NCBI GenBank assembly: GCA_900314725.1
Contig: OMWJ01000002.1
Location: forward strand, 1 to 64,000
Source of the DNA: an uncultured Bacteroidales bacterium
GTDB lineage: Bacteria > Bacteroidota > Bacteroidia > Bacteroidales > P3
Reading direction: 5' to 3'
DNA length: 64,000 bases
Position numbers and translations under genes: made by a program. Positions 3,263-25,308 of the stretch are shown here, in pieces. Position 1 is the stretch's first letter. Each line of letters begins with the position of its first letter. The notes under the pieces are model-generated. The model saw nothing but the letters and a program-made list of their open reading frames with translations. It was not told the DNA's origin and made no database searches.

Positions 3263-4244
3263 TATCCTTTTTTACTACATCTAACAAATACTCATCATCA
3301 TTAATTTTGTGTATCTTGTTCTCTGTACGCAAATCAACCACAATTCTGTCTAATATACCATTGACAAACAAACGGCTTTTTTCGGTGGAGAACTCTTTGG
3401 ATAGTTCTATATACTCATTCAGTGTTACACGCAAAGGAATTGTAGGGCAATAGATAAATTCAGTTATTGCCATTTTGATTATGATTATATCAATAAAGGC
3501 AATACGGTCCATATCCCAATTCAGTATTCTACTATCTATTAACTTGTCATATTCTTCCCAATGATTTATGGTATTGCGGAAAAGATTGGACATATAATCT
3601 TGGTCTGTCTCTATCGCATTGTCTATTTTCTTATCAAAAGGAGTTGATAATAGTTTATCCTTGCAATCGGTTTGTTCCCAATTTCTAAGCAAGACAATAA
3701 CAACTTGACACAAATACTCGTAATCATCTTCCCATGAGAATTTCTTTTCAATCAACAGCTCATAGAAATTAGCGTCCTTTATGATGTAGTTCTTGAACAA
3801 CTGAACTATTACACGTCTGTGCTGCTCAAAGGTTACCTCTTCACTTTGCATATAGTCTTTATAGGAATCTGAACCTTTGAAACGAAGAAATATTTGACGT
3901 AACAAATCTTTCTGATCGTGCCAATTAATATGCAAACGTTTGATAGCTTTAGTCAATTGCTCGCATTCAGCCATTCTATCAAAGACAGGATTTTCTACAA
4001 AACGATAGGATGGATTCTTTTCCTCTTCTGTAGGACGGAATTTATTCTTACCTTCATCTATTATCTCCAAAGCAATGTCTTTTATCTCAAAGATAATCGA
4101 AAGTAAATAAACCTCTAAGTCAAACATCTCATCTATATTGGAAAACATCCATTTTTCTTGTGCTTCTATATTGCTTCTGCCGGCAGTATGATAGGCATAT
4201 AAGGATTGTAGCACTTTTGCTCTTAAAAAATGACGATTAAGCAT
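3249..4244 (-). CDS. nusB: Transcription antitermination factor NusB
   Basis: The 331-aa protein begins MLNRHFLRAKVLQSLYA, the usual start of the enlarged NusB of Bacteroidota. Its NusB RNA-binding core is in the C-terminal half (DRIAFIDIIIIKMAITEFI, then LRVTLNEYIELSKEF and FVNGILDRI). NusB binds boxA RNA with NusE/S10 and supports rRNA antitermination. The N-terminal half is the phylum-specific helical extension. It overlaps the DUF1573 gene by 14 bp. A TATCTTTG-type -7 element lies on the minus strand at 4316-4323, 72 bp before the start. Confidence 0.92.
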   Translation of the reverse strand: MLNRHFLRAKVLQSLYAYHTAGRSNIEAQEKWMFSNIDEMFDLEVYLLSIIFEIKDIALEIIDEGKNKFRPTEEEKNPSYRFVENPVFDRMAECEQLTKAIKRLHINWHDQKDLLRQIFLRFKGSDSYKDYMQSEEVTFEQHRRVIVQLFKNYIIKDANFYELLIEKKFSWEDDYEYLCQVVIVLLRNWEQTDCKDKLLSTPFDKKIDNAIETDQDYMSNLFRNTINHWEEYDKLIDSRILNWDMDRIAFIDIIIIKMAITEFIYCPTIPLRVTLNEYIELSKEFSTEKSRLFVNGILDRIVVDLRTENKIHKINDDEYLLDVVKKDNDDE

Positions 4245-21516: not shown

Positions 21517-22380
21517 ATGAGACAATTAAAGATATCTAAGCAATTAACCAATAGAGAAATTACTTCTTTAGATAAATATCTTCAAGAGATTGGTCGTTTG
21601 GAAATGATTACTCCAGAAGAAGAAGTAGTTTTAGCACAAAAAATTAAGCAGGGAGATCAAGCAGCATTGGATAAACTGACAAAAGCTAACCTTAGATTTG
21701 TTGTTTCAGTCGCAAAACAATATCAAAATCAGGGAATGTCATTGCCAGACCTTATTAACGAAGGAAATGTTGGCTTAATTAAAGCTGCACAACGTTTTGA
21801 TGAAACAAGAGGCTTTAAGTTTATTTCCTACGCTGTGTGGTGGATACGTCAAAGCATACTTCAGGCATTAGCAGAACAAAGTCGTATTGTTCGTCTGCCT
21901 CTAAATAAGATAGGCTCTATGAATAAGATAAATAAAGCCTTTGCTAAGTTGGAGCAAGAATATGAACGTACTCCTAATTATGAAGAAGTTGCTGCCACAT
22001 TGGATATTCCTGATAACGAAGTAAGAGAAAGTATGCGTCATTCTGGAAAACATTTGTCTATGGATGCTCCTTTGGCTAATGACGAAGACAATACTATGTA
22101 TGACTTTATGCGTTCTGATGAGGATACAACACCAGAAAGTGAATTGATGTATGAGAGTTTGAAGACCGAAATCAACCGTGCAGTTTCCACTCTTTCACCA
22201 AAAGAAGCCGATATTATAAGAATGTTTTTTGGTTTAGATGGTTATACTCCTATGACTTTAGATGAAATCGGTGAAAAATTTGATTTAACAAGAGAAAGAG
22301 TTAGACAAATTAAAGAAAAAGCAATAAAACGTTTAAAACAAACTTCTCGTAGTTCTATATTAAAATCATATTTGGGATAA
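21517..22380 (+). CDS. rpoD: RNA polymerase primary sigma factor RpoD, copy 1
   Basis: From ATG 21517 ([14 protein letters not shown]) the protein is 287 aa, the normal length for the housekeeping sigma of Bacteroidota, which lacks region 1.1. Region 1.2 is [20 protein letters not shown], region 2 contains [18 protein letters not shown] and [15 protein letters not shown], and region 4.2 is [19 protein letters not shown], the standard -35 recognition helix. It should direct transcription from the TTTG/TAnnTTTG promoters seen here. A terminator follows at 22423-22460 and a second rpoD-like gene follows that. Confidence 0.95.
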
Positions 22381-22640: not shown

Positions 22641-23501
22641 ATGAGACAGCTAAAAATATCTAAGTCTATAACCAATAGAAGCAGTAATTCCCTTTACCAG
22701 TTCTTGCAAGACATAAGTAAAGAAGAAATGGTTACGCCTGAGGAAGAAGTTATCCTTGCACAAAGGATAAAGAATGGGGATCAGGTCGCTCTTGATAAAT
22801 TAGTAAAGAGTAATTTGAGATTTGTTGTCTCTGTTGCAAAACAATATCAAAATCAAGGTCTGTCTCTGCAAGACCTTATCAACGAAGGAAACATTGGACT
22901 TATAAAAGCAGCTCAGCGATTTGATGAAACAAGAGGCTTTAAGTTTATCAGTTTTGCTGTGTGGTGGATACGTCAAAGCATACTTCAAGCCATTGCTGAC
23001 AAGTCTCGTATGGTGAGATTGCCATTACATCAAGTCGGAATGTTGAATAAGGTGAAGAAAGAACGTGCAAAACTTGAACAACTCTATGAAAGACAACCTT
23101 CAGAGGAAGAAGTTGCAGATGCTATGAACATCTCCGAAGACAAACTTCATGAAACAGTTTCTGCTGGTAGTAGAGTTTTAAGTGTAGATGCACCTTTATC
23201 AGAAGAAGATGATACTAATTTAATAGATATTCTTCAACCTGAGGATGCTGAACAGCCAGATGACAACGTAATGCAAGAATCTTTACAAAAAGACATTAAA
23301 GAGATAGTTGCAACTCTTAATCCTTTGGAGCGTAGAATTATTTTCCAGTTCTTTGGAATAGGATGTACGCACGGAAAAACTTTAGAAGAAATTGCATCAA
23401 CGGAAAACATAACGAAAGAAAGAGCAAGAAAAATCAAAGAAAGAGCCTTGAATCGTTTGAGAAATAATGAGAATAGCAAAAAATTGATAAAATATCTGTA
23501 A
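22641..23501 (+). CDS. RpoD-type sigma factor, divergent copy 2
   Basis: The 286-aa protein is collinear with the first rpoD and nearly identical in region 2 ([35 protein letters not shown]). It diverges in regions 3 and 4: DKSRMVRLPLHQVGMLNKVK replaces the copy-1 version. The recognition helix reads NITKERARKIKERALNRL instead of [18 protein letters not shown], with Arg to Lys, Val to Ala and Gln to Lys changes. It may therefore read a different -33 element. Its stop overlaps the start of dnaX. It has its own promoter and a terminator separates it from copy 1. Confidence 0.9.
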   Translation: MRQLKISKSITNRSSNSLYQFLQDISKEEMVTPEEEVILAQRIKNGDQVALDKLVKSNLRFVVSVAKQYQNQGLSLQDLINEGNIGLIKAAQRFDETRGFKFISFAVWWIRQSILQAIADKSRMVRLPLHQVGMLNKVKKERAKLEQLYERQPSEEEVADAMNISEDKLHETVSAGSRVLSVDAPLSEEDDTNLIDILQPEDAEQPDDNVMQESLQKDIKEIVATLNPLERRIIFQFFGIGCTHGKTLEEIASTENITKERARKIKERALNRLRNNENSKKLIKYL

Positions 23502-24640
23502 TGGCTGAAGAAAATAGTAATTATATAGTATCTGCACGAAAGTATCGTCCTACAACTTTTGCTTCAGTTGTAGGTCAGCAACATATTACTTCAACTCTTC
23601 AAAATGCAATTGCAACAAATCAATTAGCACAGGCTTTTCTTTTTTGCGGACCACGTGGTGTTGGTAAAACAACTTGCGCTCGTATATTGGCAAAAACAAT
23701 AAATTGTACCAATTTAACAAAAGACACAGAAGCATGTAATGAATGTGAGTCTTGCCAAAGTTTTAACAAAGGTTCATCATTCAATATTATAGAATTAGAT
23801 GCTGCATCTAATAACTCAGTAGATGATATTCGTGAGTTGGTGCAGCAGGTTAATATTCCTCCAATGAATGGAAAATATAAAATATACATCATTGATGAGG
23901 TTCATATGTTATCTACTGCTGCTTTTAATGCCTTTTTGAAAACTTTAGAAGAACCACCTAAGTATGCAAAGTTTATTCTTGCAACCACAGAAAAGCATAA
24001 AGTATTATCTACTATTCTTTCTCGTTGTCAAATATTCGATTTCCATAGAATAACTGCTAACGATATATCTACTCATTTAGAATATATAGCAAAAAAAGAA
24101 AATGTTAAGTATGAAAAGGCTGCTCTTGATGTCGTAGCCTCTAAGTCTGATGGTGCATTAAGAGATGCTTTGTCTATGTTTGACCTTTTGGTGTCTTTCA
24201 CAGATGGCAATCTTACTTATGATGCAGTTGTTTCTTCTTTGAATATTTTAGACTATGACTATTTCTTTAAGTTTGTGGATTATATTCTTACAGGCGATAT
24301 TAGCAATACCCTTTTGTTATTTGACGAAGTTTTAACCAAAGGTTTCCAAGGAGATACTTTCACCGAAGGACTTGCATCTCATCTTAGAAATCTTCTTGTT
24401 GGAAAAGATGTTCAAACAATTCAACTTTTGGATGTTCCTTCTGCTATACAACAAAGGTATATTGACCAATGCCAAAAGACACCGACTTTGTTTCTTTTAA
24501 GATGTTTGGATTTTGCAAACAAGGCTGCACAGGAGTACAGAATATCTAATAACAAGAGATTATGTATTGAACTTATGCTATTGAAGATGTGCAACGTGAT
24601 GAATAAAATGGCTGAAAAAAAAAAACCAATAGCGAAGTAA
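23501..24640 (+). CDS. dnaX: DNA polymerase III gamma/tau subunit, frame-0 (gamma-like) product
   Basis: The 379-aa frame-0 product is the clamp-loader ATPase. Walker A is GPRGVGKT (50-57), the zinc-binding cysteines are C69, C79, C82 and C85, Walker B is IIDEVHMLS, and TTEKHKVLSTILSRCQIF holds the SRC motif. The frame stops at TAA 24638-24640, just after an 11-A run (24615-24625). This makes a gamma-like protein without the polymerase-binding tail. The missing tail is open in the -1 frame to 25308; see the separate entry. The start overlaps the end of the second sigma gene. Confidence 0.93.
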   Translation: MAEENSNYIVSARKYRPTTFASVVGQQHITSTLQNAIATNQLAQAFLFCGPRGVGKTTCARILAKTINCTNLTKDTEACNECESCQSFNKGSSFNIIELDAASNNSVDDIRELVQQVNIPPMNGKYKIYIIDEVHMLSTAAFNAFLKTLEEPPKYAKFILATTEKHKVLSTILSRCQIFDFHRITANDISTHLEYIAKKENVKYEKAALDVVASKSDGALRDALSMFDLLVSFTDGNLTYDAVVSSLNILDYDYFFKFVDYILTGDISNTLLLFDEVLTKGFQGDTFTEGLASHLRNLLVGKDVQTIQLLDVPSAIQQRYIDQCQKTPTLFLLRCLDFANKAAQEYRISNNKRLCIELMLLKMCNVMNKMAEKKKPIAK

Positions 24641-25308
24641 TTACCCCTGTTATTCAACAAAAAGAACAAAAACCAGAACAAAAAGAGCATAAAGAGCAAA
24701 ATTCAGAACAAAATACAGAACATAAAAACAAAATTATTGAAGTTTCAAAAGAAGATTCTAAGCCTGAGAATAATGTTTTACAGCAACGTCAAGAAGAATT
24801 TGTAAAAGAACTTCCTAAAGATAGTAACCCACAAGATTTAACTCTGAAAATCTTAGGAAAAAAACTTTCTTCACCTTTTGCTATCAAAGAAGATGTAAGC
24901 GGTGTTCAACCAAAACCTATTGATGAAGTAGAAGAGACTCCGTTTAATTTTAATGATGTTTTAAATTATATTGAGGCCTACTCTTCTTCTATATCTACCA
25001 ATGAGGAAAAAGCAGATTTATTCTTTGCCCTTTCCAATGCTAAAAAACAGTCTAATAAAAATTACATTATAGAGCTTATTGTTAAAAACTCTATGGATGA
25101 ACAGGTGTTATTAAAAAACAAAGCAGAACTCGTTCAATCCATAAAAAATAAATTCTCCTATTCATTCTTGAAAATAGAAATATCGCTGGATACACAAGAA
25201 AGAAAAGAATTACATTACAATCCTATGGATAAATTCTTTGTTATAATAAAAGATAATCCAGCGGTAACAAAACTTAAAGATGCTTTTGATGCAGATGTTC
25301 AGCTTTAA
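24615..25308 (+). CDS. dnaX: dnaX -1 frame extension (tau-like C-terminal region)
   Basis: Slipping back one nucleotide in the A11 run (24615-24625) turns the frame-0 reading GAA AAA AAA AAA CCA into GAA AAA AAA AAA ACC. It opens about 225 further codons to TAA at 25308, for a total of about 602 aa. The extension has a Gln/Glu/Lys-rich linker and then a globular part (ETPFNFNDVLNYIEAYSSS, ending DNPAVTKLKDAFDADVQL), in the position of tau domain V. E. coli makes gamma by a programmed -1 shift and Thermus by transcriptional slippage on an A run. Here the arrangement fits slippage, though a simple indel or assembly error in a homopolymer is also possible. Confidence 0.75.

Follow-up and report, generated by a model that had tools for sequence, protein, structure and literature searches.

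The window analysed here comprises 64,000 nt of contig OMWJ01000002.1 from the assembly of an uncultured Bacteroidales bacterium of family P3 (GCA_900314725.1). It includes a dnaX gene whose two parts lie in different reading frames (Table 1). Frame 0 begins with an ATG at 23501, and its product matches the Pfam models DNA_pol3_delta2, DNAX_ATPase_lid, and DNA_pol3_gamma3, indicating that the AAA+ clamp-loader module and domain III are both present; it scores 450 bits against TIGR02397. There is one copy of dnaX in the genome, the remaining matches being weak AAA+ similarities with E values of about 1e-5 to 1e-9. Two RpoD-like sigma factor genes are located side by side upstream of dnaX (21517–22380 and 22641–23501), and region 4.2 of the second is diverged and reads KERARKIKERAL. 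The stop codon of this second gene overlaps the ATG of dnaX in a TAATG sequence (23499–23503), which suggests that expression of the two genes may be coupled.

Table 1. Features of the split dnaX gene in the window and of the amber-containing dnaX genes in a sister genus
Feature	Position	Strand	Basis or comment
dnaX frame 0, encoding a gamma-like protein of 379 aa with AAA+ domains I–III and tail KKKPIAK	23501–24640	+	Pfam, TIGR02397, NF011531
A11 run, putative slippery site at the boundary of domain III and linker	24615–24625	+	A9–A13 at the equivalent junction in relatives
+1-frame stop TAG, predicted gamma end for A10 or A13 transcripts	24630–24632	+	Computed products
Frame-0 stop TAA, predicted gamma end for A11 or A14 transcripts	24638–24640	+	Computed products
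Tau extension, −1 frame: Gln/Glu/Lys linker and C-terminal domain, stop TAA at 25306–25308	24616–25308	+	NF011531 positions 401–613
Folded C-terminal domain of tau (predicted)	24949–25284	+	AlphaFold model; weak Foldseek similarity
Amber loci of sister genus g3: L040, L046, L053, L213, L214, L322–L381	TAG at 4093 (L046) and 4096 (L053)		
Public g3 examples: CAMZFW010000113.1 (L040), ONQD01000012.1 (L046), CADAWR010000007.1 (L053)			

A recount and an ORF check confirmed the A11 run and the 379-residue frame-0 product that had been described in an earlier, sequence-only reading of this DNA. Runs of 11 or more A residues occur at only two sites in the 1.96-Mb genome, the one in dnaX and an A18 tract outside any ORF, and given this rarity the dnaX run is more than chance. 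The A18 tract (L283, about 1501–1518, on contig C6 of the same genome) adjoins an inverted repeat with 17-nt arms. Among 30 sampled A or T runs of at least nine residues in the genome, 25 are not within any ORF of at least 90 codons. In the window dnaX, both non-tau frames have stops no more than four codons past the run. The product sizes computed for transcripts with different A counts (A9, 601 aa; A10, 376; A11, 379; A12, 602; A13, 377; A14, 380) mean that every transcript from A9 to A14 would yield a protein of either gamma or tau size. In the computed translation, the tau extension is read from A9 or A12 transcripts or by way of a −1 ribosomal shift, and an A_AAA_AAA heptamer is in phase within the run.

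The two reading frames were compared with the DnaX equivalog model NF011531 (PRK14971), which has a length of 614 positions and a curated cut-off of 685 bits. As the sequence-only reading had stated, the −1 frame stays open as far as 25308, and the joined 602-residue protein scores 719.6 bits over positions 2–613, above the cut-off. Frame 0 alone scores 676.6 bits (positions 2–372) and falls below it, and the −1 ORF alone scores 37 bits (positions 401–613). Judged by these matches, frame 0 and the −1 ORF are a single dnaX gene.

The gamma/tau junction was classified in 268 dnaX genes from Bacteroidota, a set in which deliberate retrieval of split genes has led to their over-sampling, so that the counts are not prevalences. 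A run of A9–A13 is present at the junction in 179 of these genes (A9 in 35, A10 in 119, A11 in 21, A12 in 2, and A13 in 2). The run-bearing genes comprise three layouts: (i) tau in frame with the N-terminal part (106 genes), (ii) tau in the −1 frame (67 genes), and (iii) tau in the +1 frame (6 genes), and the run length stays near 10 in all of them. The sampled −1 splits have a run of at least nine A residues near the stop in 66 of 68 cases, and the run is A10 in 49 of the 68. In each layout the two non-tau frames close soon after the run: relative to a null in which the next 80 codons were shuffled and kinship among the genes was ignored, the median distances to a stop are 3.3 and 1.7 codons versus 12.3 and 7.7 for the in-frame class, 3.3 and 2.7 versus 13.3 and 7.7 for the −1 class, and 0.7 and 2.8 versus 6.7 and 11.3 for the +1 class. 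On a FastTree phylogeny of the DnaX N-domain, in which many branches are weak, the run-bearing genes require at least 31 changes of layout; the −1 state involves at least 18 changes when well supported branches alone are counted, and the six +1 genes, with runs of A10–A12, represent six separate changes. The remaining genes include 78 of the 268 that are single ORFs with no run of nine or more A residues at the junction, and the two-product design is therefore not universal. Most relatives have both parts of dnaX in one frame. The open frame is shorter than 500 codons in about 3 in 10 genomes of the phylum sample and in roughly one-sixth of the rows listed for the order sample, both counted by eye. 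In one public metagenome-assembled genome (L093), the contig end resembles a Nextera adapter (CTGTCTCTTATACACATCTGACGCTGCCGACGAA) and creates a false stop in dnaX.

We consider it probable that the window dnaX is expressed by programmed transcriptional slippage, giving a gamma-like and a tau-like protein. RNA polymerase would stutter at the A11 run and produce mRNAs that differ in their number of A residues. Transcripts with A10, A11, A13, or A14 would encode the gamma-like protein (376–380 residues) because a stop is reached within four codons in either non-tau frame. In A9 or A12 transcripts, the N-terminal clamp-loader part would be joined to the −1 extension, and the resulting tau-like protein of 601–602 residues would carry the linker and the C-terminal domain. 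Both proteins would presumably enter the clamp loader. Two hallmarks of slippage, a homopolymer of at least nine residues and close stops (at 24630 and 24638), are present in the window dnaX, and the comparative evidence lends good support to this claim, which the sequence-only reading had also made. From these comparisons we infer that slippage takes place in the cell, and with some efficiency, and that it is mainly the work of RNA polymerase and not of the ribosome. The sequence-only reading had taken full-length, single-frame relatives lacking an A run as evidence against slippage; such relatives are found in some lineages, but the claim stands because most of the single-ORF relatives read keep a run of A9–A13.

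A different account, in which tau is made from an unaltered transcript by programmed −1 ribosomal frameshifting at the A_AAA_AAA heptamer within the run, appears unlikely. The heptamer is in phase, and −1 is by far the commoner direction among the split genes (67 versus 6 for +1). Seven A residues would suffice for −1 ribosomal slippage, however, and the runs of nine or more in 66 of the 68 −1 splits, which are left unexplained by a ribosomal shift, therefore favor slippage by the polymerase. The stops lead in the same direction: a mechanism that uses only the −1 shift needs a single stop, so that the prompt stops in both non-tau frames favor polymerase slippage, and that in the unused frame has no explanation under ribosomal frameshifting. 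The six independent +1 splits at runs of A10–A12 are also unaccounted for. No conserved stimulator was found in the −1 class, where downstream hairpins are not in excess (mean z of −0.37 for the downstream 60 nt versus −0.20 inside the gene) and upstream Shine-Dalgarno-like motifs are not enriched (7% versus 5% elsewhere in the gene). Nevertheless, E. coli-like stimulators may be present in Chlorobium phaeobacteroides according to a review (PMC5009743), and one Bacteroidota gene (L173) has a −1 split with no run of even seven A residues; its junction, AGA AAA AAG TAG, contains an in-frame A_AAA_AAG heptamer of the E. coli type. This junction indicates that at least one lineage uses, or could use, ribosomal shifting. 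L181, a family relative of L173, has a long A run at the same place. We hold polymerase slippage to be probable rather than certain because ribosomal slippage is possible on any long A run and because of L173; an A11 run always contains A_AAA_AAA, and ribosomal −1 slippage may add to the product.

In four further genes without an A run (L022, L063, L167, and L201), and also in L354 and L379, tau continues in the +1 frame, with the change of frame at the frame-0 stop or immediately ahead of it; L063, L167, and L201 have AGGCAATC in common upstream of the stop. These loci are possible candidates for +1 ribosomal frameshift sites.

The −1 ORF could in principle encode a second protein, initiated independently beside a gamma-only DnaX, and the overlap of the two ORFs does resemble translational coupling. 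This arrangement is very improbable. No ATG, GTG, or TTG occurs in the tau-frame ORF before 25093, which is codon 156 of 227, so that the ORF is not an independent gene with a start codon of its own; initiation at 25093 would leave only 71 residues and cut the C-terminal domain, and most relatives carry both parts in one frame. Within the genus, the tau extension has a conserved domain at its end and is kept open, except in one metagenome-assembled genome (L007), which has an additional frame break within the C-terminal region and was excluded when rates were calculated. The mean identity within the genus is 32% for the extension versus 77% for the N-terminal part. In the closest pair (L016/L017), pN/pS is 0.36 for the extension and 0.13 for the N-terminal part; the medians over all pairs in the genus, many of which are saturated, are 0.72 and 0.23, respectively. 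By these rates, the tau extension is under constraint, although a looser one than the N-terminal part. The AlphaFold model of its C-terminal domain has a mean pLDDT of 86.5. No Pfam family matches this domain in the window sequence and a search of the PDB with the single C-terminal sequence gave no match, whereas a profile of the C-terminal region gave weak matches to DnaA domain I and PolC; among relatives, Pfam identifies DnaX_C in one (0.0043) and PolC N-terminus II in 11. Foldseek comparisons with the model returned DnaA domain I (TM score of 0.67 on the target), DciA, and, weakly, E. coli tau domain V. Since all of these have E values above 0.03, the likeness of the modelled domain to DnaA domain I, DciA, or E. 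coli tau is a lead only.

Within the genus, 13 other genomes were searched, and each has a dnaX gene. The junction is readable in 12 of them; in the other (G004, locus L018) the contig stops short of the A run. All 12 have the identical split, with a run of A9, A10, or A11 and tau in the −1 frame, so that both the run and the frame change are conserved in the genus, and split dnaX genes also occur in other genera of the family and, across the order and phylum, in many families. The competing explanation raised in the sequence-only reading, that dnaX is truly a single-frame gene interrupted in one strain by a mutational frameshift or an error of assembly, draws on the error-prone nature of homopolymers and on the origin of the window in a 29-contig draft. 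It has to be rejected as extremely improbable, given that the 12 genomes are split at the same place with differing run lengths, that dozens of other lineages are split likewise, some of them in single-contig assemblies, and that the extension is open and constrained, as seen in the closest pair. Phase variation at the DNA level, in which replication slippage would create subpopulations with A9 or A12 (tau only) and with A11 (gamma only), is scarcely credible: homopolymers do mutate rapidly and run length differs between species (A9–A11 in the genus), but the −1 state is fixed in all 12 genomes despite these differences, where a random switch would leave some of them joined. Tau is needed in E. 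coli, and if it is similarly needed here, cells with gamma alone would probably not be viable. On the evidence of these genomes, the split dnaX is a stable, genus-wide state of a core replication protein that is encoded out of frame.

A different arrangement is found in g3, a sister genus in the same family as the window organism. All 66 g3 loci that were read, which include two duplicates (L213 and L344 are from one genome, and L046 and L348 are identical), have a TAG near codon 370–390 of dnaX and never a TAA or TGA. Past the TAG, tau continues in the same frame for about 170–260 codons in 64 of the loci and in the +1 frame in two. Positions 1–11, TAGAT-[AT]-GC-N-AG, vary only at two wobble positions among 61 distinct sequences. 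A small hairpin usually begins at position 14, and its sequence differs between loci (CGCC-NNN-GGCG, GCC-NNNN-GGC, or CCC-GAAA-GGG). Relative to mononucleotide shuffles, the hairpin shows no gain in stability (median z of −0.3), so that any role would rest on its position and form and not on its energy. Of 190 genomes of the family, 45 contain the strict pattern, once each, and all of these belong to g3; its reversed control never occurs. The amber-containing genes form one well supported group on the DnaX tree. No suppressor tRNA with a CUA anticodon was found in the one complete g3 genome that was searched (G015). A peptidyl-tRNA hop at the TAG was judged unlikely in view of the variable codon that precedes it. 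These features suggest that g3 dnaX is a candidate for programmed amber readthrough in place of the A run; a literature search found nothing on recoding of dnaX by amber readthrough.

With modest confidence, we favor the view that selection in Bacteroidota holds the gamma and tau pair and that the means of producing it are exchangeable. Most lineages would rely on slippage of RNA polymerase at a run resembling A10, around which the frame drifts freely (0, −1, or +1); one lineage would use an A_AAA_AAG ribosomal site, and g3 seems to use UAG readthrough, with UAGAU-W-GC-N-AG as its invariant context and a short hairpin usually following. Since polymerase slippage would fill all three frames in any case, an insertion or deletion at the site would alter the ratio of the products and not their kind. 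The comparison provides a test that tells polymerase slippage and ribosomal frameshifting apart without wet-laboratory data. For annotation, the consequence is that a truncated DnaX is all that automatic gene calls report in a considerable share of Bacteroidota. The g3 layout, if confirmed, would be a rare instance of a core bacterial gene with programmed readthrough of a stop codon. The window dnaX alone is of moderate interest, and the phylum-wide picture of higher interest.

The sequence-only reading had presented the layout as new, and in this it was mistaken. Two-ORF dnaX genes in which recoding makes the longer subunit were reported in 2013 by Antonov et al. for 17 genes in 12 genera, inferred from sequence, with Chlorobi named and A10 in nine of the genes (PMC3711429), and the finding is repeated in a 2016 review (PMC5009743). 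As in that GeneTack dnaX cluster, the short form in the window is in frame 0, tau requires a −1 change, and poly-A is present at the frame change, where transcriptional realignment was proposed; the run is mostly A10 in the earlier set and A11 in the window. The survey adds conservation across a genus, the +1 splits, the changes of layout on the tree, and the pair of stops outside the tau frame. The split layout is thus already known, and what is added is the insight that the frame drifts while the run is kept; a literature search of main texts found no paper that states it.

In Thermus, slippage at an A9 run yields gamma (PMC1088944, PMC5009743). The window dnaX resembles that of Thermus thermophilus in having a run of nine or more A residues near the junction and close stops in the non-tau frames, and mixed transcripts, which give gamma and tau in T. 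thermophilus, are proposed to have the same outcome here. The polarity is reversed: the Thermus gene encodes tau in its genomic frame and gamma arises by slippage, whereas in the window the genomic frame encodes gamma and tau requires slippage. The 106 single-ORF Bacteroidota genes with an A run have the Thermus polarity. E. coli dnaX, with its −1 ribosomal frameshift at A_AAA_AAG, gives the same two products that are predicted here, but the shift produces the short form in E. coli and the slip would produce tau in the window gene; the E. coli site has a Shine-Dalgarno-like element and a stem-loop, neither of which is seen here. Blochmannia also has essential genes out of frame at poly-A tracts, including dnaX in B. 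vafer and B. floridanus, and these homopolymer frameshifts are possibly rescued by slippage (PMC3017870). The dnaX tract in Blochmannia lies within the part found only in tau and is regarded as a defect that is tolerated, whereas that in the window is at the gamma/tau junction and is followed by stops in both other frames. In Shigella mxiE, two overlapping ORFs are similarly joined by a nucleotide inserted in the transcript to give a longer product (PMC1088944), although mxiE is an unrelated gene that encodes a transcription activator and dnaX encodes a replication protein.
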